Part shown: positions 13,740-50,300 of the stretch, piece by piece | Layout of the letters: each line of letters begins with the position of its first letter | Numbering within the stretch: position 1 is the stretch's first letter | NCBI GenBank assembly: GCA_009869945.1 | Contig: WIXG01000029.1 | Location: 1-64,000, forward strand | Direction of reading: 5' to 3' | Source: Mesaphorura yosii | Taxonomy: Eukaryota > Arthropoda > Collembola > Poduromorpha > Tullbergiidae | DNA: 64,000 nucleotides | Program-made: the position numbers and the translations under genes | The notes under the pieces: generated by a model | What the model was told of the DNA's origin: nothing | The model's database searches: none | Seen by the model: the letters and a program-made list of their open reading frames with translations, nothing else

Positions 13740-16700
13740 ATGAAATTAAAAATGACAGGAGTGGAGAAGTTCAAGAAAGTGAAAATGGGAAACCGCAGAC
13801 ACGGCTGCTGCAACTGCGTCCTAATGCTGGAAGTAATTACTGTGGTACTATTCGCAATGCCATTATTCCTGACTATGGCGCATGGAATTCATTTGAACTC
13901 AAATGGGGGATACGAAGACATCGTCGTAACAATCGGGAAGGACGTGCCGCCAATTACGTGTCAACAGCTAATCCAAAATATTCAGGTGAGCCATTAATTT
14001 TTATGTCTTTCAACTTTATCTCAAATGCGACTTCAGATATCGGCATCAGAATGGAACATTGTTTGATGAGAATGAGAACCCAGTCCTCTGTCGGGCAAAT
14101 TGAATTCCTTTCGTGCAAAAATTCTTGCAGTTCATTTTATAGGCATCGCCACTCGCCACCTTCCCACTTCCCAGTCGACAATGTCGCATTTTATGGCGGC
14201 CAGATTCTGATCTGGCTTTCCAGCTCCCAAGTCAGGCGGTAACACCACAATAGGTATTCGCTGTTCATTCTGGGCGTATAAACTTTATGGGCTTTCTATC
14301 ACCAGATCAGCAAATGTGTACAGGACCTCAGCAAACATAAAATTCTGGACAAACAAGTAATAAAAACCGCACGCTTTTGTATGTCATGCAATTGTCGCAA
14401 GTCACAAACCAGGGTGAGTTTAGCCTGACTATCAACCGAAACTGATCTGTGCGATGAGTTTATGCGTGAAGTGAAAGCAAATCAATGCGCAACGCCTCCG
14501 ACATAAAAGACGTTCTTATTTATTTAGTTGAATTCAAGATTTCCGAATGGTGAACTTTTCCGGTGCGGTTCTTCAACATTTTCCTAGTTGGATTTGATGC
14601 GACTTTGTAGGTTGGGCGTGTGAGGACTCTAGTAAACTTTGAATTCGCAAGGATTGAATTGAATCAAAATGAAGGAGACAATTCCCTTCGAGGGTTGACA
14701 TGTTTATAGTATTAGCTTGATCTGGCTTGGAAAACATTTTTCATAAAAATTGCTCTTCCGTACTTCCAATGTGGTTCCAGATAAGAAATGGCATAATTTA
14801 TCGAAACTGTACTTTTGGCAGATAAAGTGCCTTCGTGCAAAAGTCCAAGTCACAAGCACTAGGAGCGATCAAAGAGCAGCAGTATCTGAAATTCAAATCG
14901 ATTGGGCGTTCGAGTTCCAGTGTGGAGCATGAAGTGGGGGTTCTTCTAAGATTGATCTACATCCGCTGTCGATCCTAAGCCCTCTTGAGCCGCCTTGATC
15001 TTCCGTAGCGCAGTCACGGTCATAGTCTTCCGCCAATTTTGCTAATAGGATTCCGGACTTGCCTCTACGCATTATGATGATAGACTTTTCCTTGCAATCT
15101 CTGTGCAATCATGAAATTTGTAGCAAATGACACTTGAAAATGTTATTGTCTACGAACTGCACTTGGATCGGACGCCGGACTTGGTGCTGCTCACAGTCAA
15201 AACTTATTTCATGCACCAAACGAATTATGACATTATGTAACTTGGAGAGCCATGAGAGCAATATTGAACTCATTCAAGACAAATAGACCAGCCCCGATTG
15301 GATTGACCGTATAAAAAGTTCTGCCATTAGTCGCATTCACAACGCAACGTTTCCACGTTACATAATGTTCGAGCCTTCCAGGTTCAAGCAAGGTCCCTTT
15401 CCTGGCTCCATGCCGGGCGTTTGTTGACAAAGTAAAGAAATGCGGAAGAGACTGGGAAAGACTGCAGCGTGTATGTAATGTAATCTAGCTTTACGGGAAA
15501 TGAACTGGAAAAGAGTGCACGCATCAGAGGTTAGCCAAGTTAAAAATCAAACTGGAAAGATGCTCGCTTCCGATAAAGAGAAGTCGCAGTCGAGAATACA
15601 ACCATCAAGCTCCTACAAGAATCTTTGCAAAACAGACTTCTATGTTGTAGTCGTAGTCCCTCTATTTGATCAAGAACGAAGCGGCGGTAGTGAGATTTGC
15701 TTTTCTTTATTGTAAAACGTGCTAGATTGCGATTAGACACTGATATTGGACAACTCGCCGCCATCGTATTGTTTACTTCATAATTCGTGATCTTTGCTAG
15801 TGCCTTCAGCTCGTCGGTCTTTTATCATATTTGCTATTTACTCAACTCCGTAGCGGAGATGAAATGTTTCTGGATGCCGGCCGACTGTTCATCGGGCCAT
15901 GTCTTGTCTTGGGCTACTGCTGCTCGAAGGGTGACGTTGGAATTTTTCCTATTCTTTGTTAGGCCTCACATGACACCAGCGTCGCATTAGAATGACAAGA
16001 GTTCACTACGAACGAGACGGAGTTCAGGCTTCTGAAAAGCTCGAACGTCATAGTCATGGTCATCACGATGAGCTTGCAATAAAAGTCAAAACATTTCTGG
16101 TTACACAATAGGAAGGAGTGCCTTGATGAATTTTGATTTTCGACCAAGCGGCCACCACACACAAGCGACGAGGCAGACACTTGAGACATATTGCATTCAA
16201 TTTATTCTCGTCTGACAAATTATTATGTACGAACTGGAAGTATGTGCTGTGTGCTTCGTGCTGCAACACCTGCAATGATCGATCATTTTCCTCGGAGACT
16301 AAAGCCGGAATTAAAGGGAAACGCAGCGCGAAGTAGGTTCGAAGTTTTAATTACGAATGGACATGCATCAGACTAGGCGTTCCTTACCGTACCCTAGGAG
16401 CAGTTGATGGTGGTGGTGATGATGTGCAGATGCACTCTAAAGTCTTCGCATTATGAATTATGCGGATTATAATGAATTCATGGTGAAGTTCCATACTGTG
16501 AAAAAGAAAAGCAAGAATTACACACGGGATACGATGAAAGAAGCGAGGAACAGCATTGTTTTGGTTTGATCCTGGTTGTATTGTAGCAGAATGCGAGACG
16601 AGATGAATCAACATGCGCTCAACAGTTCCATTCTCCATTCATTAAGTGAACGATTGCACGAAGGGAAGATTTAATGAATAGGTTCCTTACTGTTTCGCGG

Positions 16701-34700: not shown

Positions 34701-37700
34701 TGCCGATAGTATCTAAGCGCACATTTGCACGCACGCGCACCGGGCATCTCGCACTGAAGAAGCCACATATTCAATTTAGACAGCGAAATAATTTGAACAG
34801 CATGGGTGCAACGGGTGAGCGTGTCATGCATGGAGTAGCGAATTCCACCGTGAATTCAATATCAGCAATGCAAGATAAATATCAACAACAGATTGATTGC
34901 ATTGCAAGCGATACTTGACGTCACAACATCTGAACGAGTCATTGCCACGCTTCGAGTGATCAAGCAGTTTTCTAGCTTGCCCCATGCTGCGTGTAATTGT
35001 CAGTGTCTTCTTTTTACAATCACAAACCCGCTATTGATTGGGTCGAACCAATTGATTTGATTGCGATTTGTTGTACGAGCTCATTAAATGTTTGCATATT
35101 TCGAAGGTAGCCTATTATGGAGCTTGAATGGACTCTGGACTTTTGAAGAAAACGTCTACGCTGGAACTTTTGATTATTGTAAAAAAATTACCACATTACT
35201 GTTTCCAGGTTTTGAAGCGCAATCAGCAACGAGCGGCCGGTTCAGTCATAATTCTGATAAGCCAAGGCACAGTTTCAGCTCTGGACTTGGAAACATCGCT
35301 TGAGTTACTCCGGGAGGAAGAAGTTTCATTGGCGTCTATCGAATATCCTTCATTAAGTAAGTACGAATACTTTGTTGCTGGAGCAGTGGGTGCAATTTTG
35401 TAGCCATTTTAATCTGCGGCCGCGCAACTCCGAACGGTGGAGTACGGTGCTATTGTCGACAGCGAAATGTTTAAAAATTGTAGCTTCAAGCACTTCATTC
35501 AAACCACTTGAAAACAATTGTAAAAAGTGTAGCCAGAAGAAAGTTCCTTGCCTTGCAACTTTTGTTTTTTCTTTGTCGAGTTATACTTTTTGTAATGACG
35601 TTCGAGTAGCTGAGTTTAAGTCGAGGCACACTGCTAAAAAATAAATGGATAAATAAAATCGGCAGAGCCCCAATCGTAAAAGATTCTGTCTGAAGTCCGG
35701 GTCCGGACGGAAGGAGAAGCATCATTAAATATAGCAAAATAAATCCTGACCATACTTTGTGCGCGTGATATTCGTTTTCCATAACTTTCACTTTGTTTCT
35801 GCTCGCAAATAAATTGCAAATGGTACTGTTATTGTTGTTTCGCTTTGTTCTTTCCTTTCCTAACCAGACATCGGAGCTTGTAGTTCACGATTTGTGAATC
35901 AGAAACCTAAAGTAATTCTTTTTCAATCTGATCCGATCTAGCGTTCTGATTCGCAATAGGAATGCTGCCAAAGTTAATATATCGTAATGTAACGTAAATA
36001 ATGATCGCAGAATGGAAGCACTTTCTTTCATTGCTGGACCATTTCTCTGTTGTGCGAACCATGCAGCCGTACTAATGGAAAGCACACACAGTTTCATAGA
36101 GTCAGAAGTCCTGGCTACATATTTTTTAAAAAGGGAAAGTTTAACAAGGTTGAGGAAACACTGCCCGTCACAAAAGGAGACGAGAAATTGTTTGAGTGCT
36201 TTCCTTCCTCTTTCTTGCAAGCATTTTATGTTTAATGCTTGAGGAGAGAATTCTGCCGCAGTTTTGCACATTGAGGCAAAAACCATACTTGTGAGACTCG
36301 TACAAATTCACTGTGGTGCAGTATGCGAAAGTGTATTTGTACTTTTATTTTGCTAACTTGTGAATTTGTTTTTGTGTACGAAGGTGATGGAAAAATTGCG
36401 GCTCTTGCAGAGGGAACTAATGGACCGCACTTCACCATTCGTAAGTTGCATTTCAATATTTCATTTATGCATGAAGAATTTTGTCCAATTTATGCACCCA
36501 AATGCGACTGTAATACATGAAAGGAAAGCATGATTAAGGTTGAAGAAGAATGCAATATGTTTCAATTTTATGTCTTGTCCCTCATACAGGTGAGACTGGA
36601 GTTGGTTCCATGACGCATTTGAGTACGTACATGAATCTCATCAATGCATTGGCTGCAATCCAAAAATTTTACACTGCGGACGTCGTCTCTACGTGGCCAG
36701 TGACGGTATAAAATTAGAGTTTCAGTTTCAGCGCAATTTAGCAATTACAAGCACTTTATATTCATTTTTATGCGTAACTGCAGATTCACCAGATTGAATA
36801 TCGTGGCGATTCTCGTTCGTACATCGAGGCGAACTTCAGCTTTGAGTCCACTGCGGTACAATCGCCAGGAGAGTTCTTCATTTACACGTCAAACCCAAAT
36901 GACCCAAAAATCAACAATGTCGAGTTGATTAGCCCAAATGGTATAAGATACACGACTCAACTATCGGATCTTCACGATATTAACGTCATTAAGATTGATG
37001 CTCTTATAAATGAGGTAAGAAACATGTTGGGGTAATTTGAAAATAAAATGATAATTGGAGATTGCGAAAGATAAGCAAACAGAATAATTTCTGAGTTTAG
37101 TTCATATTTTTATGTTTCGCAACTCACGTGGGTTTTGTTGTGATAATTTTTACCATTTGTTTATTTTACCCAATTTCAGCCTGGCGTGTGGAGGTACAAA
37201 GTAGAAAGATTAGCAGACAGTCATCAGTCACACTTCGTTCAAGTCGTGACCAGAACGACGGCGGAGGACTTACACATTCGACTCTACTCCAACCTTCCCG
37301 AAAATAAGGTTGCGAATCTGAGCGCAACACCTGTCATACTCTACACAGACGTTAGTTTTATTAATGAGATTTAAGCGGGCTTGAAACACTATGAAGAAAG
37401 AATCTGTATTTTGTCAATACGCACAGGTAAAGCGAAAGAATTCTCCCGTAATTGATGCCGATGTGGAGGCTTTGGTCGTGGCTGGCACGAAACGATGGAC
37501 GGTCACTCTTCTGGATAACGGAAACGGAGGTTGGTTGGATGGTATTTAATTTTATTTAATCGAATGAGCAATTGAAGACGTCTTCGTCTTCTCTTTACAG
37601 ACGCCGACGTGACAAAGAATGATGGAGTATATTCAAGATACTTCATTCTTCCTCCCGGGATCAGCTCTTCCCAACTGGAAATCAGTAGCCGAGTAATTGT

Positions 37701-39126
37701 CAACCCGTACAGAGCAAAATTTAGTGTCGTGAGTCAAGACCCTCTGCACGCTTATAACCATCTGCCATGTTGCGGGTCTTTTGTTTCACCGACCGACCCA
37801 AAGCAGCAGTATAAAATTGTACCCTTCGGTGAGAGAATTAGCAACATGCTAAGTCTTCGTGTAGGCGAGAATCCTCCGATGGGATACTATCCACCTGGAC
37901 GAATAGGCGACCTTCGCTTGATATCGACAGACTCATACAATCGAGCGGTCACCATGATGTGGACAGCTCCTGGTGAAGATTACGATCAAGGAATTGTGGC
38001 GTCCTATCAAATATTCTACAGTGTTGACAATTACAATGAAGACTGGAAGTTGCTCTCGGAGTTCACAGCAGACATAGAAGCAGGAATTCAAGACAACACG
38101 ACTGTGAAATTGCCGCACTTTGGACCTTTCCTGTTGGCAATTAGTGCGATAGACTTTTATGGCAAGGCCGGGAAGATTTCCAACATATTACGAGTCGCCG
38201 TGTTCCAACCCGGTAAAGAGCAGCCAAGTGGGCACAGCCAAGGCAATTCCTACGGGATCTCGAGAACGACTCCGTCAACTGAAGAACTGAAAGATTTTGA
38301 TTACTCTATCTATTACTACCTTTACATAATTATCTGCGCAATTGTTGTGATTCTCTTGCTCTCTGCCCTCGTTGTTTTACTCCTTTATTGTCGCAAAATG
38401 GGTTTATCACAAACGAAACCCAGCAAAAATGGAAATGAGGGAAAGATTGCAGCAATTACCGATCCCAAGAGTCCAATCCACTGGTCTGCATCTGAATTGT
38501 TGGGCGAACATGAGAAGAGACACAGTTTGTATGATGGCAGTGGCAGCGCTTCTCCCGGAGAAGGCTCGACAAAATCGAATCACAAGATCATTCAGCATCC
38601 GCATCATTATGTGAATCATGGCCTACAAAATGGCTCGCTGCAACATCATCCGATGCATCTTAATATTGCGGCGCAAGATTTCAACATGGACGGAAACTCA
38701 CCTAGTCGTACCACACAAAGTCCTGCAGATTCGTACGATGACCCGGACAGCCCCACTCCCATTCCAGTTTCTGTAAGGAATCGTCACTTGTCCCCCACTG
38801 AAAGTCCACATGAGATGCCCAACAACATGAGTGGTGCAAATTACTCGCAATCCTCATTACATCCACAATATCGCCAATATCAAGTAACACAGAATAGCAG
38901 CGGGTTTCCTCACCTGAAGGCACCGAACCCTGCGTTAGTGCTTCCTTTGACCCACAATCACTACAGTCATGGTTCCATGAGCGCCAGCAGTAGTACACAC
39001 AGTAGTAATCTTAGTTCTAACAACATGCAGCACGTTCCTCATACGTTAAGGAGCCACTACGATCCTGAAACTCTAGGGTCTACGAATTCAGTAAATAGCA
39101 AAAAGAGAAATATTACGATGGTGTAG
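13740..39126 (+). CDS. Calcium-activated chloride channel regulator (CLCA) family membrane protein
   Basis: Thirteen exons: 13740-13985, 29727-30156, 30513-30669, 30773-31036, 32672-32774, 33231-33467, 35209-35356, 36384-36440, 36590-36705, 36784-37014, 37180-37350, 37427-37529 and 37601-39126. The phases agree and give 1262 residues. Exon 1 holds a signal-peptide-like hydrophobic segment, then the family's NGGYEDIVVTI strand. The N-terminal CLCA domain follows, with FTSASEYLHAAT, the HEW..YRYGVFEE site near residue 231, and SIMSFPQ...FCDSQTHN. A VWA domain spans about residues 380-550. The ectodomain ends before a transmembrane helix at about 992-1018 and a tail of about 240 residues rich in Ser, His and Pro. 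CLCA proteins are secreted or type I membrane proteins that modulate TMEM16-type chloride currents. Here the metalloprotease and MIDAS metal sites are degenerate. Start codons at 13752 and 13785 are alternatives. The family call is firm; the function of this member is unknown. Confidence 0.9.
13986..29726 (+). other. First intron of the CLCA gene (15.7 kb)
   Basis: The donor is CAG|GTGAGC and the acceptor is ATTAG|GG, phase 0. Joining the exons gives LIQNIQ-GIFTSASEYL, the expected order of the CLCA N-terminal domain. I found no convincing nested gene on either strand; the longest open frame is a minus-strand one of 161 codons at 21993-22478 without family features. Regulatory DNA could be here, but none is recognisable. 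Confidence 0.75.
16971..16994. repeat. Short inverted repeat in CLCA intron 1
   Basis: GCCATGCC and GGCATGGC form a perfect 8-bp stem around an 8-base loop. There is no wider symmetry, so it is likely incidental. Confidence 0.4.
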
Positions 39127-39601: not shown

Positions 39602-40780
39602 TCATTTCACACCTCGATTTGGGCGGCGTTGGCGCTTAAGTTCTTCTTGACGATGGTCTCTTTGAGCTTGAACTATTTTTACGTATTCCCTGTAGTCGTA
39701 ATGTCGGGGGCCAAATGTCGTTAGAACATGGCGGCCGATTTCTTGCATCAACTCTTTGTACTTATCTTCTGGAAGCTTGAGTAGGTCCTGTGACCAAGCG
39801 ATCACGTTCAAAAGACGAATGAATTGGTTGGCAATGCGGTCATCATACTCATTGTATATTTGTCTGAGCATCCCCAAAATAGTGTTGTGTTTGTTGATTG
39901 CCTCCGAAAATGACATCCGCTGGAAGTACTTGTTCAGCTCCATTTCTTCAATTAATTTGCTGAGTTTCACATAATTCACCTTCGAGTCAGCTTCAGTTTC
40001 ACACGTGATGCAGTGGCACTCGAAGTGATATCGCTCCTTCAGTAACGCTTGCCGATCCTGCTTTCCCCCGTGCTCCGCGATGTAGCTGATGTAGATTTCT
40101 TCTCCTTGCGATATTTGTGCAGTGGCTCGAATAGTCATCTCAGTGCCCCCATAAGTGCAGAAGAAAGCGTTTGGCTTGCAGCTGTGGTTGAAAATTGACT
40201 GCTCAATGTAAATTCCGCTTCCAAGCACTTTTGTTTGGCCATCATTGTAGACCCGATGTGAATTAGTTTTGTAGACGCTGAACAATTCCATCATATGGTC
40301 GACGGATGCTCTAACGGAGTCTTCTTTCATTTCCAAGTGCATCCTTGTCAGTTCTAGGGCAAGAGCAAGAGATGTCTCCTTTTCTGTATGTGAAGCCAGG
40401 TCCTTGAAGGTCCGTTCAGAGCCATCAACCATTTTATGCTGCTTGTCCATTAGCGATGGATTCTGACAGAATGCGGCGACCATACGAAATACAATCAGCT
40501 TCACGCCAGCATTCGGACCATTAGGACAGCACCCACGGTAGCAGCCTGATTTACATTCAGACTTGTGAGCAAAATTCCAGTCTTCGCCCTGGCACTTTTT
40601 GTCGCAATAATATGCCAACCCGCACTGTGCACATTTCTTAAGGTGGTAACTTTCCTTCAAGCAATTGGTGCACACTTGGCCGATCTTTTCTCTCTCCACG
40701 AACTTAAGTAGCGGTTCACAAGTTTGTATTGCATCACCAGGTTTGTAGTCATGTACGGCCAAAGTCGGACAGGTCGCCAT
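39602..40780 (-). CDS. SET and MYND domain protein (SMYD family), putative lysine methyltransferase
   Basis: A single uninterrupted exon encodes 392 residues. The start at 40780 is the first ATG in frame; a stop codon lies in frame 45 bases upstream. A complete MYND zinc finger occupies residues 37-76, with paired Cys at 37/40, 50/53 and 59/63 and the final His72/Cys76. The SET core has NHSCKPN at 198-204, GEEIYISYI near 221-230, and a post-SET Cys cluster (ECHCITC) near 251-256, followed by a helical C-terminal domain. SMYD proteins methylate lysines on histones or cytosolic proteins. The N-terminal strand aligns from the LAV...KPGD region onward, but the usual GxG SAM-binding motif that precedes it is missing. 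The gene is convergent with CLCA. The subfamily (SMYD3-like or an arthropod-specific branch) is not certain. Confidence 0.88.
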   Translation of the reverse strand: MATCPTLAVHDYKPGDAIQTCEPLLKFVEREKIGQVCTNCLKESYHLKKCAQCGLAYYCDKKCQGEDWNFAHKSECKSGCYRGCCPNGPNAGVKLIVFRMVAAFCQNPSLMDKQHKMVDGSERTFKDLASHTEKETSLALALELTRMHLEMKEDSVRASVDHMMELFSVYKTNSHRVYNDGQTKVLGSGIYIEQSIFNHSCKPNAFFCTYGGTEMTIRATAQISQGEEIYISYIAEHGGKQDRQALLKERYHFECHCITCETEADSKVNYVKLSKLIEEMELNKYFQRMSFSEAINKHNTILGMLRQIYNEYDDRIANQFIRLLNVIAWSQDLLKLPEDKYKELMQEIGRHVLTTFGPRHYDYREYVKIVQAQRDHRQEELKRQRRPNRGVK

Positions 40781-42298
40781 TTGAATAGAAGGTCGTGCTT
40801 GGTTCAATAGGTTTTCTCACCTGTATGAAATAGCGTTGATTCAAATGTATTTGGGGAACATCCGAAATGTAGACACCTGACGACTAACCGAATTTTGCCC
40901 TTTGCAACTCCTCCGAAGTAATTCTTGCGCCGATGCGATGTGTGTAATGAGCTGTCTCTACTCGTCAAACCCAACAATATAATTGGATAAACCAGGAAGT
41001 CAGCGTTTGAAAGTCGCACCAAAGCAATTACACTGCTGGACGCGGACTTGATAAATAATTAGGAGTGCTTGAAAACAGCCACTTGTAAGTCACGGTACAG
41101 GCCCAAAAATGTCTTTCGTCCAACTGCGCTAATAATCAAACTGAAATGGGCGGATAACGAACTATGCTCACCGATACACAAAGCAGTGTGATATTGTAGC
41201 GTAGCATCTCACACGCTGCTACCACCACCACGAATCTAAAACATGGGCCCTCGCTGCCTGGCTCTTCCTGCCATTACCACATATGTGCCTGACTTGCTGA
41301 TCATTCACAAAATTTAAAGAAGTGCACAATATGGGAATATGCCATGTGTGTCTTTGTTGCGAAAATAGGGCAACTGAAGCCGAGTTTGTTGAACGAGCTC
41401 CAAGATGAAGCTAATATCGCGCCAATAATGACCAGTTAAGGTTGGTTGTCAACATTTGGTTGACCTTGACCCGTATGTGAAGTTCTGGCCGACATGTTCT
41501 TTGGGATAAAATGCAAGAAACTTTTTTCTTTGGAACATGCGCATGCATGCGTCGATGCATCCGGGTCACACCATCAACATCGTGCGCCGGACACGCTGTT
41601 GCCAAATGCCATGCTGAAGTTGGACAAGAATGCCCCGTTAATAGAAATGAGCAATATTGGTCACTTGCCGTACTGCGCAAAATTTTTCCTTTTTTTACGC
41701 AATTGAGGCTTCATTGGCACATGTCATGCACAAATGCGCCATTTATTCGAGAAAAGTCCGGCTGAAATTTACAAAGCCTTGCTAAGTCTATAGTCGTTAT
41801 TATTGCAGCAACGGCTTGCTATTATTGCCAAGTATTGTATTTAATTTGTGCCATACATGTTATCATTTTCATACTGAACAAGCGCGTGATATGCAGAACC
41901 TGATAATGGAGAGCTGGTTACTGGACGTATCGGTACAATGTATATGCAAACGCAGCAAAAAATAGCCTCAAGGACGTATATCGCGTTTACATTCACACAC
42001 CGCACGATGATAGTCATTGCTTATGACCAATGCTTGAAGTCGATCACATGAGATGAGGCAAACTTTGGTAGATAATGTTGTCGATTCTATTGTTCAGGTG
42101 CTTCTGAATAACTCTGCACAGCATTATCCGCCAAGCGGGCATTCGTGTTTTAGTTCTTGCTTTGTCATCATTAACTGATTTTGTAACAGGTAATAGCGAA
42201 GGTGAGATTTCACAGGGAATCTTTAGTTGGCTTCTGAATTAACAAATTTATTATTTAGCAATCGATTCCTGGAGGAATTGCAGCAACCAAAAGTCGCA
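40781..42298. other. Divergent spacer between the SMYD and selenoprotein W genes
   Basis: This 1.5-kb stretch should hold both promoters. A minus-strand acceptor-like site, TTTCATACAG|GTGAG, around 40828 hints at a 5' UTR intron in the SMYD gene. No other coding segment is recognisable. Confidence 0.45.
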
Positions 42299-42843
42299 AT
42301 GGGTAAATTGAAGGTTCATGTTGTGTACTGGTAAGTCACCTTTCTCTTGCATTGCCTGCATAAGCTGTCTAGTGAGTAGTTTCAAGTGAACAGGATAATT
42401 AATTAAAGCTCCATTTCACAGTGGCTCCTGAGGGTACGAGCAAAAGTTCTTGGCCCTGAAGAAGGACCTTGAACAAGAATTCCCAAACCAACTGGACATT
42501 GTAAGTTTCCTGCTTGGCCTTTATATTTTAATCCTTTGATGTTCTTGAAGTCTTGAGGTCGCGAATATAAATTCTATACAGACAAGCGAGAAGTCATACA
42601 AAATGTACGTCTTGCCGTCCGGGAAGTTTGAGGTTTCCATCCAGAAATCTTTGGCGGGTAGTGCCGATGACATGGTGTTGATTCATTCAAAGATTGTAAG
42701 TTTTAATGAAGCACGAAATGATGGTACCTGTTCTCGTGCTGTTATTTTGCATTCGTAATTTTTAGGGCGGGGACGGTTTGGTGGACACAGACGGAAAGAT
42801 TCAAAGTATTAAGGCGAAGATCCAGAACGCGATCAAGTCCTAA
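42299..42843 (+). CDS. SELENOW: Selenoprotein W with in-frame UGA selenocysteine codon
   Basis: Four exons: 42299-42330, 42422-42500, 42582-42695 and 42766-42843, all GT-AG, coding for 100 residues if the TGA at 42429-42431 is read as selenocysteine. The N-terminus MGKLKVHVVYCGS-U-GY carries the family's CxxU redox motif (Cys11, Sec14). EQKFLALKKDLEQEFP and QLDI follow, then the C-terminal LIHSK, GGDGLVDT and a helix. This is the thioredoxin-like Rdx fold of SelW/SelT/SelH, cytosolic redox proteins. The match to SelW continues past the TGA through three more exons, and a SECIS hairpin lies in the 3' UTR, so the TGA is not a stop. The protein is about 12 residues longer than mammalian SelW, with an extra segment between KFEV and LIHSK. 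Confidence 0.93.
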
Positions 42844-42908
42844 GCGTTCAGTCCCATGATCGGTGATTATTCACAAATCCGACATTATTTCGTACAATTA
42901 AGTCCAGC

Positions 42909-42993
42909 CAGTATTTTTCATTGTGACGCGATGAAGTGAAAATCCTCCGTGATAACTTCATTGCTGATTTGTTTTTATTGAAAAATTAAGCTG
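42909..42993 (+). promoter_or_regulatory. SECIS element of selenoprotein W
   Basis: The hairpin starts 66 bases past the stop codon. Its quartet strands are GTGA (42923-42926) and TGAT (42965-42968). Between them a 10-bp helix pairs GCGATGAAGT (42928-42937) with ACTTCATTGC (42955-42964), with one G-U pair. A 17-base apical loop begins GAAAA, placing the conserved unpaired A's 12 bases after the quartet. A lower helix pairs ATTTTTCA (42913-42920) with TGAAAAAT (42979-42986), and CAG with CTG at the base. The first quartet base is G where AUGA is usual; the UGA/GA core is intact. A SECIS recruits SBP2 and the Sec-specific elongation factor. Confidence 0.85.
42974..42979 (-). promoter_or_regulatory. 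Likely poly(A) signal of the innexin gene
   Basis: TTTATT on the plus strand is AATAAA for the innexin transcript, 110 bases past its stop codon. It lies inside the SelW SECIS region, in the internal loop of the 3' strand. Confidence 0.5.
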
Positions 42994-43032
42994 ACTGTAG
43001 TTGTATGCGAAATTGAGGAAGTATTAGAATTG

Positions 43033-43038
43033 ATTAAA
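43033..43038 (+). promoter_or_regulatory. Candidate poly(A) signal of selenoprotein W
   Basis: ATTAAA, the commonest variant signal, lies 40 bases after the SECIS, leaving the whole hairpin inside the mature 3' UTR. Confidence 0.5.
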
Positions 43039-43088
43039 GATATAAAAATGAATTATTTTGAACGGCTTTTCGCGATCAAAACAACAAT

Positions 43089-45011
43089 TTAGACAGATTT
43101 CGGTTTCGAACCTTCTTCAACCTGCTCCGACAGTCCATTCAAAAAGTTAATGAATGATCTTTCATATAAGGAGCCTTCAATGAGTGTGAGCATAAACCAG
43201 TCCCCAGCATTGCATTTGTCCAGGAAGGAAGACGCTTTCCTAATATCGCAATATAGGTTGTTTATGTAATGACGTAAAATTAGCCAATTCCGAAATCTGG
43301 CGGAAACCAAAATGATGAAGCGTGAAACTAGATTCAGAATTGTAGCAGCGAGTAATAGGACAAACCAGAACCTGAAAAACACAGGATAAGCGGCACATAA
43401 TTATGTCAGTGGAGCAGCATAGATGCTGTCGATTTTATTGTTGCTTACCACAAAAATGCATAAATCTTTTCGTTCAACACGTTCATCTGCAAGACACACA
43501 GCCCGTCATAGTTGACAATGTTACCACTTGGTCCATACTTGCTGAACGCGCATTTCGTCACTCGAGGAAAGATCTTCGCAAAAACATCGACCCTTTGCTC
43601 CGGATCAGCTTCAAGCAGACCATTCATGACATGCTTCCCGAGCGAACCAAACTCGTGCCCCAGCAGATAATCCATCAGATAAAGCTGGGCAGCGAGGTTG
43701 ACAAGATTCAGCAACTCACAAAATATGAAGTATCGGAAGTATTTATCGTTGTGTTTGAGACCAAACTTAACCTCGTAAATCAAGTATGCTAATGTTGACT
43801 TCTCTTTTGCTGCGCCAGCCGTTCCGCTTTCTAGAGTGTGTGTATGTGTGGGGCTTTCTTGTTGTTCGTGGCCACTTTCGGGGTTTAAAGCAGAACACTG
43901 CGAATACACATTAGCAATTGCACTCTCCGAGTCCGAATCAGTTGAGCTTGATTCAGATTCGTCTTCATTTTCTGATTCTGACTCTTCATCTGTGTCCGTC
44001 GTTGTCGTCTCGTCTGTGCTTTCACCGGTTTCATCATCACTTCCGCCATCATGCTCTTCTTCTTCACTGAGACTGTTTTTAGATCCAACGTCAGGTATTT
44101 CATCGTTCTCCTTGAATATATCCTGCACTCCGTGGATTTCAAGAACTGACCCGTCATTTTCACGTTCAATCTCTACAAATAAAGTAAAGGAATAAAGTAG
44201 CTGTAGTAAGAACACGGCAAATGATTCGTTTTCTATCTCATGTATATTACCTGGTTCTGAACTTGAATTGCTGGTTTTGCATTTGCATTCATGTTCATGA
44301 TGTTGATTATTCACACAAGTGGATTTCTGCATTTGTTTCTTCACGCTCTTCTTTTTCCCCTTCTTTTTATCAGATTTCTTACCATCATCGTCCTTGTTCT
44401 TGTCCTTAGCTTCGTCCGCTTTCGTGTCTTTTGGAGTAGGCATAAGAGGGATCAGCAAATTCCTCATGCGACCATTTTCCAGGCACTTCCAAATGTAGAA
44501 GGGGCCATAAAAAAGAACCGACTGAAAATAGAGGGCTACGGAAACCCACATGTAATAGCTTCTGTAATTGACCGTTTGGGTCTTCCTGTCCAGTGGAGCC
44601 ACGCCAGGGTGTGCATCACCGTAATAACCTGCAAAATATCAGTCAATTAACAAGAAGACCAAAGCATGAATAAAGTTACTAATCAGTCTCTCAGTAAGTC
44701 TTACTTATTTTTTGTTCGTATGTTGGCTTTTGCTCTTCCAAGCTGTATGTGGAATGAACAAAACAGTAAGCATTCAGAAACTCCGTCGGAATGTTCTTGT
44801 CTTCTAGGCAGTTGATCGGATCTCGGAGGTAGGTTGTGGAAGAAATAACCGCACAAATTAGTAAAATCATAGAAGAAAGCCGATAATGCAGTCTGAACGC
44901 GTGATTGTCTATGCGCAAAACGCGGAAAGTGAACTTTTTCTCTTCTTCCTTAACCACGCCTTTTTCTTTAGCCTCTGTCTTTTTCAGCCGTGATTTGAAT
45001 AGCGCCTCCAT
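43089..45011 (-). CDS. Innexin gap-junction protein with an enlarged, highly charged cytoplasmic loop
   Basis: Minus-strand exons 45011-44705, 44628-44251, 44172-43449 and 43371-43089 give 563 residues. The N-terminus reaches HAFRLHYRLSSMILL (TM1, about 43-62). Extracellular loop 1 has Cys68 and Cys83. YYGDAHPGVAP leads to SYYMWV, where most innexins have YYQWV, and TM2. TM3 follows LKHNDKYFRYFIFCELLNLVN. Loop 2 carries FPRVTKCAFSKYGPSG and YDGLCVLQMNVLNEKIYAFLW, then TM4 and a short tail. Innexins form invertebrate gap junctions and hemichannels. The loop between TM2 and TM3 is about 200 residues, much longer than usual, with a Lys/Asp-rich part and a Ser/Glu/Asp-rich part. The intron at 44173-44250 is 78 nt and open in frame. 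An acceptor-like site just above the start suggests a 5' UTR exon upstream. Confidence 0.9.
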
Positions 45012-47394: not shown

Positions 47395-50300
47395 TAGAGC
47401 CAACGGGAGGAACCAAATACTAGGGGCGACTAGTGACTGTGAGATCAATTACGAGGGCACGTCACAGGTGCTATTTACTGAACACAGAATCTTGAAGAGT
47501 ACGTATGTATGCGATTTCATTACTTTCATTGTTAACGCTATAAGAACATTCATCCCTGTTTAATTACTGTCAAAACTTGTAACAACATTGGCCGACAAGC
47601 TGTCAAGCTGACCTTCAGTGGCTTTAAGAAGGTTAACTGAAAGCACCAAACATCGGCCGCTGCCTTCAGCGTTCAACTTCAAACAAACGGATCATGAATG
47701 GACTGGTTGATTATCGGCGAACCGGCCGCATGAAATTCGCTACTGAATACCGCGTTGTCTGAAATGTGCGGTCTACACAATCGCCGTCTAGATCGTCATG
47801 AGTCATGCGTAAAGCGTTGTGAATTGGTTTGAGATGTCCGGTCTCATGTGCGAATAAAATGACGCGGTTAACACGTCGAACTGGTCAAATGCGTACCTCG
47901 CCTCGTGCAATGCGATGGTGTGATGAGTCCTTCGGGAACAAAGACCATATAAAAAGTCCGCAAGGATGGTGAAGTTTAGTGCGCAGCTCACGCATCACGG
48001 AGAATTGAAAGACACTCACGCAGACTGAGGACGAGGAAACTAAAAAGCTGTGGACAGGCAGGAGTTTCCTTCAGTTTAGTCATTCATTCGATGCGCTTAC
48101 GACCTGAGTTACAACCGAGAACTTTGATATTAGTGTCACAAATCTTAGTTTTTCGTAGTGTAGTTGAATTTAATTGCAGTTAGCGGGTAGTAGCAAGAGT
48201 AGATACTTCTGTAATTGGAACGAGCACGACGACAAGACGGATCATTGATGAGTCAACATCGGAATAGTATCTGTTGAAACCTGGAATAATCCTAATATCA
48301 ATCATCGCTAAAGCACAGCAAGGGCCCGGTTGGGCAGGTCTACGCATTAAGTCAATGTAAGTCCTAAATAATCTTAATGTCTTTTCGAAATTTTCGGCAG
48401 ATGCATGTAAAGATTACGGAATTTTGAAGTTGGCATTTATGTGCGGCTCTGACAGCAAACTTTGACCTTGCATTTATCTACGAGCATAAGTACTTTTGCG
48501 AAGGTTTCTTCGTGTTTTCGTGTTCCATGTTATGGTTCAAGTCATTTACACGGCTACGATCCATGATCCATTCATCAGCCACTGCATCTTGTATGATGAA
48601 TATTTATTCGTAAACATTGGTATTGGCATTCCACGAATGCTGATATGAGCAAGGAAAGATCGGTGAACTCTCTTGACTTCTTGACCCTTGTCTGGTGTAG
48701 CCAATGAGCCTGTATTGTAGACCCTGTTTTGACCATGAGTGCCAGGGTGTGTTTACAGCCGTTTTTAGCCAAGTCTCTTTCTCCCCAGTCGCCCAATCAG
48801 TCGTATCATGTTCGGGAAGGTTAATCTCGATTTGTCTGGTCAAGGATCCGAAGATTAAGTTCAAATTGAACATACCGTGTTTGTGACGCGACGACAGTAC
48901 GGGTCAATAGTACCGTTTTAACTAATATTTGCCCTTTTCCGTGGTTAAAGGTTCATTCGTCATTGAGTACATTCTACTGTGGGAGAGTGGGGTGACGACT
49001 TTCGTGGTGTGTCGCAAATTGCGCCGAACAAAAGGCTGACGAAATTCCAACTAGGCGTGCATTAAACTACCAACACTTAACTTACTAGCTCGTAATAAAA
49101 TTAAAGTTCCGCTCTGCACCGAGTCGTCTTACTTCGGGTCCGCTTTGCCGCTTCTGCATGAAAACGGTTGCATTTAGATTTCTATTTTGATTTTAGTCGT
49201 GTTCTTTCCCAGCGTGGAATCAATTATGGAATAAATTAGAATGGAAGAGGACGAACAAATGTCGAAATATGGTAAACTGAAAATAATGAGAAGTAAAGAT
49301 GGGAACCAGCAGAAGAACAAAGGCCTATCAAATTACTTTGTATACTGTGCAGGTTCTTTCCGAATACAAAGCGATGAAGTTTCCATTCCATTCTCTGTCG
49401 AGGCGGAACACACTTTTATGTTTTATCGACTCAAAATCCTCTTGGTTTATATGCCCCTCAGATCGGAGATAATGTTTCGTATATTGCGTAATCTAAAAGT
49501 GTCTATATTTATATGCGACGAAAGGACACGCCTTTTCAAGCAAACCATTAAATTTTGTGTGGGCTTGTTGATGGTTTAGCAAGCAAATCAACTAAGCTCG
49601 TCATGTATTGACTGAAAGTCGCCGAAAGCGAGTACTTCCATACTTCCTCTTTAGTTTGGCACATGCTTATGGAAATCGCATTCCTGTCCTTGTTTCCAGT
49701 GATTCGTCAGGAAGTCAGGGGCGCACATATCACGCACCACGCCACAGTCACGCCGTCAATCTCACCTTCAACCAACTTCTGCACTCTGCATCTTCCTTAT
49801 AACGGCAGAAGGATGAATAATTTTCAACATGTACAACAAAATCTTGCTGGCTGGGCATGAGACGAGAGATGAGATGAGTTATTGATTGAAATCGCATTAA
49901 TTAATTCCGTCGCGTTTTGTATTCGCCATTCTCGTGTTATTGTTTCAAACGTCAGCATTTTCGGTTGGAAAAGGCGCACTACATACGAGAATCTGACTTT
50001 TTTAATTCCTTAAGTGTACAAGTAGAATTCCTCGTAGAGGCATACTGTCGTGAGCCTTGTATATTACACTGCAATGGCATATGATCGCGTATGGCAATGG
50101 AACAGAAGCCGTTTTTTCAAAGTTGCGGTATTTAGTTCAGGAATTTTTGCTTGTTCAACAATAAGTAGTCTTTTGTACTCTTTGAGCAGGCATTCGTTTC
50201 GTCCCTTTACTTAAACAGAAGAAAAATGATAACCTGTCACAAAATTAATGGACCGCGCCCAGCAAACCTCAGCTCAATTGAGTTCAGCTCAGTTCTGGTT

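Follow-up and report, generated by a model that had tools for sequence, protein, structure and literature searches.

Does the TGA at positions 42429-42431 end an open reading frame, or does it encode selenocysteine (Sec) within a longer protein? The window that was analyzed is a 64,000-nucleotide stretch (G000:C29:1-64000), and the genome searched alongside it comprises 93.0 Mb in 1127 contigs. The original prediction placed a four-exon gene with an in-frame UGA at 42299-42843 on the plus strand, and these coordinates were borne out. The frame opens with ATG at 42299, closes with a TAA stop ending at 42843, and contains a single in-frame TGA, which follows TGT GGC TCC. The Cys codon of this series is split by intron 1, and a CxxU motif (TGT GGC TCC TGA) is present across that intron. 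The exons (32 + 79 + 114 + 78 nt) join to 303 nt, and all three introns begin with GTAAGT and end with AG. The parts of the gene are as follows.

42299..42330, plus strand: SelW exon 1, encoding MGKLKVHVVY and, with its last two bases (TG), opening the first Cys codon of CxxU
42331..42421, plus strand: intron 1, 91 nt, GTAAGT..CAG, phase 2, interrupting the redox motif at its first Cys codon
42422..42500, plus strand: SelW exon 2
42429..42431, plus strand: in-frame TGA, proposed Sec codon of C-G-S-U, in the same column in three SelW paralogs
42501..42581, plus strand: intron 2, 81 nt, phase 0
42582..42695, plus strand: SelW exon 3
42696..42765, plus strand: intron 3, 70 nt, phase 0
42766..42843, plus strand: SelW exon 4, including the TAA stop

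Eight AG dinucleotides between 42400 and 42499 were tried as acceptors. Exons 3 and 4 remained in frame only with the AG that keeps the TGA, and all seven alternatives failed to restore the frame. This result (1/8) carries weight for a TGA within the coding frame. The original prediction also argued that the summed exon length is a multiple of three only when the UGA is read through; that argument fails, since the total is 303 nt in both cases.

When Cys was typed at the TGA, the window protein matched the Pfam Rdx family (PF10262) with an E value of 7.7e-12 over residues 5-91, and the domain scored 45.7 bits against a curated cut-off of 22.6. The same sequence matched PDB entry 2npb, a selenoprotein W, with an E value of 2.7e-13 over residues 4-97. 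Both matches span the TGA, in agreement with the prediction that homology continues past the UGA, and the homology of this protein to Rdx/SelW is far beyond chance. A profile of the four paralogs described below matched 2npb with an E value of 2.5e-25. The next comparison was with C17orf37, which we take to be Rdx12, and its E values were 0.093 with the single sequence and 0.018 with the profile, leaving 2npb as the closest solved structure among the matches listed, which included no SelT or SelH chain. Like known SELENOW proteins, the window protein has about 100 residues, a CxxU motif after a VVY strand near the N terminus, GDG-VDT near the C terminus, and a SECIS element, here a candidate, in the 3' untranslated region (UTR). 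It differs from SELENOW in having L-V-D instead of Y-V-D. A SelW pattern search of prokaryote genomes matched 29 stretches, of which none was confirmed.

The original prediction did not include a SECIS element, and a candidate was found in the follow-up. It was first spotted by visual inspection and was then the sole match when 42844-44400 was scanned by structure (GTGA, 10-bp helix, apical AAAA, TGAT). The candidate begins 79 nt beyond the SelW stop and lies upstream of both the ATTAAA at 43033 and the end of an innexin gene.

42913..42920, plus strand: candidate SECIS helix I, 5' arm ATTTTTCA
42923..42968, plus strand: candidate SECIS core, with GTGA quartet side, 10-bp helix II (42928-42937 with 42955-42964), apical AA at 42939-42940, and TGAT quartet side
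42979..42986, plus strand: candidate SECIS helix I, 3' arm TGAAAAAT, 8/8 paired with the 5' arm
43033..43038, plus strand: ATTAAA, possible poly(A) signal 3' of the SECIS candidate, consensus match only

The quartet (GUGA, a known variant), helix II, and apical AA are thus all present, in what would presumably be the 3' part of the transcript. The 80 nt at 42911-42990 folded at -16.4 kcal/mol (z -2.85), and 1 of 200 shuffles was as good.

A leave-out model, R2, was derived from five SECIS elements that lie behind genes other than SelW in the same genome. With filters off, on both strands of the window, R2 ranked 42923-42968 first, at 17.5 bits versus 14.9 for the next match (E 0.4), and over the 701 nt around the candidate the E value was 0.0043. 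With default filters, R2 missed both this element and that of the C211a paralog; with filters off, its best two matches in the paralog loci were the C211a SelW element (16.2 bits, E 0.2) and the C85 SelW element (15.8 bits, E 0.25). Rfam found no SECIS in the window at the gathering score and none in 41800-44400 up to an E value of 10, and the candidate was not among the matches of a genome search with Rfam SECIS_1. The designation of 42923-42968 as a candidate SECIS rests on position and structure jointly, since the leave-out score alone has a window-wide E value of 0.4.

The elements used for comparison were those of GPx C141, GPx C426, SelT C196, SPS2 C589, and SelS C322, among which only SelS C322 exceeded the Rfam cut-off (35 bits); the others were picked by scans demanding motifs and a helix. 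A flanked alignment (A1) failed to align the cores, and the cores were hence cut at the quartets first, giving a seven-row alignment (A3). In A3 the TGA, AA, and GAT columns were invariant, 90% of 70 helix cells were paired versus 28.6 to 50% with the partners slid, all 10 helix pairs showed change on both sides, and RNAalifold gave the same helix; this conservation is partly built in, because the elements were selected by motif and helix and their cores were trimmed to the quartets.

The early pattern scans were either too permissive or too restrictive. One early structural scan found the SelW element and missed those of SelT and SelS, another gave 36 matches on one window strand and 29 on the other, and in an early segment scoring 14 of 228 window segments equaled the score of the SelW segment. 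A looser scan, run over both window strands, gave 38 matches and placed the SelW site fifth. A strict template gave 11 matches in 471,198 overlapping bases, which fall at seven separate sites, six of which follow selenoprotein genes, though the template is partly circular in that its spacing was derived from six genes, SelW included. GPx C426 passed it at a relaxed threshold only. Among 5000 Markov 3' UTRs, 13 contained a match to the strict template and none had a helix II at -13 or better. A SECIS-like match to the strict template at 47652-47695 on the minus strand of the window (reverse-complement position 16306) was taken as chance.

The genome was found to contain four SelW genes, the window copy and three others, with the TGA in the same alignment column in 4/4.

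C211:103344-103886, minus strand: SelW C211a
C211:100290-100815, plus strand: SelW C211b
C85:72443-72960, minus strand: SelW C85

All four were reconstructed from manually chosen splice sites and have four exons each. C211a was reached from the second SECIS match that Rfam gave for the genome, a weak one (22.8 bits, E 2.23), upstream of which the gene lies. A six-frame genome search with PF10262 returned three loci and failed to detect C211a, C211b, or C85; more SelW genes were found with the C211a protein as the query. The C211a and C211b genes (C211:100290-103886) are on opposite strands, facing each other, about 2.5 kb apart. A six-species table lists up to three SelW genes per species (PMC3473315).

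The window protein is 50, 45, and 40% identical to the three paralogs, and after the UGA it shares 36/80, 30/80, and 28/77 residues with them. It differs from C211a in its LDI-LIHSK loops, which are six residues longer (insertions of four and two). After the UGA, third codon positions change most in all six pairs among the four genes. For the window gene and C211a, the 80 codons after the UGA show 32, 25, and 54 changes at the first, second, and third positions, with an NG86 dN of 0.56 and a dS of 2.16; dS is near saturation for this and other pairs and could not be computed in 2/6. An excess of third-position changes after the UGA is predicted if the downstream part is translated.

The original prediction named the Sec machinery as a check, and the components sought, tRNA-Sec, SepSecS, SPS2 with a TGA, eEFSec, and SBP2, were all found in the genome. 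A tRNA-Sec on C32 scored 74.6 bits, over the cut-off, and has the anticodon TCA, as read by eye, and 86 bases; it was the only one of four matches to be counted, and in a control all 14 named genomes gave a match, five of them over the cut-off. It contains no intron, unlike two tRNA-Sec genes described for Daphnia pulex (PMC5330540). A tRNA search of the 64-kb window found none. SepSecS is on C190 (five matches, best E 3.8e-20), and SPS2 on C589 has its in-frame TGA in K-G-U-G-C-K. An eEFSec domain was found on C108 (8.2e-10), with no match in a control of 14 genomes. SBP2 was found on C312 with a protein query (E 3.5e-7, 33% identity), and the sequence upstream of this match looks SBP2-like. 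Seven PF01248 matches were considered as SBP2 and rejected, being read as ribosomal or snoRNP proteins.

Other selenoprotein genes were also identified, the names SelS, SelT, SPS2, and PurL being assigned from reading translations alongside family matches. SelS on C322 has an in-frame TGA and ends in G-G-U-G. The GPx copies on C426 and C141 have an in-frame TGA and that on C262 has Cys; a fourth GPx locus is on C1052. No PF10961 (SelK) match was found in the genome, but the control also gave no match. On C14, PF02769 also matched PurL, and on C419 it matched a long open frame. The C419 stretch (L026) has a higher GC content (0.51) and contains an open frame of 893 residues that matches AIRS_C; the stretch is perhaps bacterial contamination of the assembly.

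The genome therefore holds at least nine UGA-containing selenoprotein genes (four SelW, SPS2, SelS, SelT, and two GPx), which places the animal among those retaining at least nine. SelW itself occurs in most selenoprotein-containing eukaryotes (PMC2375036). One to three selenoprotein genes are given for four insect species and many for shrimp (PMC2375036), and Table 3 of PMC5330540 lists seven for the insect Machilis hrabei and 7 to 17 predicted genes for non-dipteran arthropods. Set against the insect counts, the nine or more genes found here make an insect source less likely. Selenoprotein losses are described in insects and in two mites (PMC2500217, PMC5330540). In its available portion, the tardigrade genome paper PMC5531438 nowhere mentions "seleno."

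Taken together, the gene structure, protein family, UGA position, SECIS candidate, Sec machinery, and third-position changes in the paralogs indicate that the locus is very probably a functional animal SelW paralog with its UGA decoded as Sec via the 3' UTR SECIS. The original reading of a Sec-type selenoprotein W is supported by the SelW homology, the SECIS candidate, the machinery, and the three TGA-containing paralogs. Another explanation is a decaying duplicate, in which translation terminates at the UGA, or Sec is inserted poorly through the GUGA SECIS, and the gene is heading for loss. The three further SelW copies in the genome fit such a course, but the frame, splice sites, and stop of the window gene are intact. 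The window copy shares the fewest residues with its paralogs after the UGA (C85 is close behind) and has the longer loop; nevertheless, its changes fall most often at third codon positions, with the limit set by the near-saturated dS given above. Its SECIS candidate is the sole GUGA of nine examined, yet GUGA is described as the rule in Ostreococcus (PMC2375036), and of 21 elements described for the sponge, 12 have GUGA_AA (PMC3473315). In addition, all 10 helix pairs are kept between the window and C211a elements, although six differ, two of them by change on both sides; two rows make the shuffle control for this comparison weak, and 125 of 500 shuffles reached the same result. We consider decay very unlikely.

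Removal of the UGA by alternative splicing or editing, or its reading as another amino acid, has a smaller probability still, close to nil. No point in support of it was found. Against it stand the acceptor test (0/7 other AG dinucleotides restored the frame), the Sec machinery in the genome, and the UGA itself, which four SelW genes and one SelT gene share at this point of the motif. If the window gene is a functional Sec-type SelW, its mRNA would be spliced from four exons, and SBP2 would bind the GUGA-type element at 42923-42968 in the 3' UTR, directing eEFSec to supply the UGA at 42429 with Sec-tRNA(Sec). The predicted product, 100 residues long, would have a thioredoxin fold and carry the redox motif C-G-S-U. 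SelW has been proposed to act as a thiol reductant, and this would probably be the function of the window protein. Automated gene annotation will probably truncate the window gene at the UGA or break it in two there, and all four SelW genes are candidates for mis-annotation.

Sec-type SelW and GUGA SECIS elements are both already published. Among the nine SECIS candidates examined here, AUGA was found in seven, GUGA in the window copy alone, and AUGG in C211b. The window element resembles GUGA-type elements of Ostreococcus, sponge, and several zebrafish and nematode genes in having G for A before the quartet and in keeping the apical AA. Unlike GUGA-type systems, this genome has GUGA in only 1/9 examined elements and AUGA in 7/9. 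Nearly all SECIS elements of invertebrates outside the sponge are described as AUGA (PMC3473315), and one GUGA with seven AUGA elements in one genome bears on the view expressed there that the SECIS core type follows the organism, not the gene.

The four SelW genes differ in both redox motif and SECIS core. The motifs are CGSU (window), CGAU, CGVU, and GGGU (C85), and the cores are AUGA in two genes, GUGA in the window gene, and AUGG in C211b. In C85 the resolving Cys of CxxU is replaced by Gly, and the TGA is kept with an AUGA-type SECIS candidate on its 3' side; the fold of this candidate is weak (z -0.94), and that of the C211a element is better (z -2.04). The C211b candidate (C211:100907-100951, plus strand) has ATGG where the quartet ATGA is expected. 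It matched model R1 only (16.2 bits, E 0.1), with no match to R2, and folded no better than shuffles (z -0.49). This doubtful element may be degenerate, the wrong candidate, or an assembly error. It is conceivable, and we put it forward tentatively, that the four Sec-type genes have diverged in redox motif and SECIS core and are tuned to differing Sec insertion efficiency and redox chemistry. If so, the four copies would form a natural series for testing the pre-quartet residue and the CxxU cysteine in an animal.

Two further Rdx family genes, on C196 (L022) and C264 (L021), are presumably SelT, as judged from their resemblance to SelT sequences. The C196 copy has a UGA and the C264 copy has Cys at the same place. 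Both share with the window SelW the phase-2 intron at the same spot in the first Cys codon, but they differ from it in having a long N-terminal region and in that one copy is a Cys version. In all, 4/4 SelW genes and both SelT genes carry a phase-2 intron within the first codon of CxxU/CxxC (in C85 this is the Gly codon). Because the same codon is interrupted in every SelW and SelT gene found, this intron may be older than the divergence of SelW and SelT.

The innexin gene at 43089-44602 of the window (minus strand, E 3.9e-48) is convergent with SelW, and its stop at 43089, which was read with the last exon from the open reading frame list, is about 245 nt from the SelW stop. It carries a long acidic insert rich in Ser, Glu, and Asp between two innexin stretches. 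The presence of an innexin points to an animal, and this one appears arthropod-like. On the other side of SelW, judging by eye, we take 37576-39126 (plus strand) to be the end of a CLCA-like chloride channel regulator and 39602-40816 (minus strand) to be a SMYD-like SET/MYND protein.
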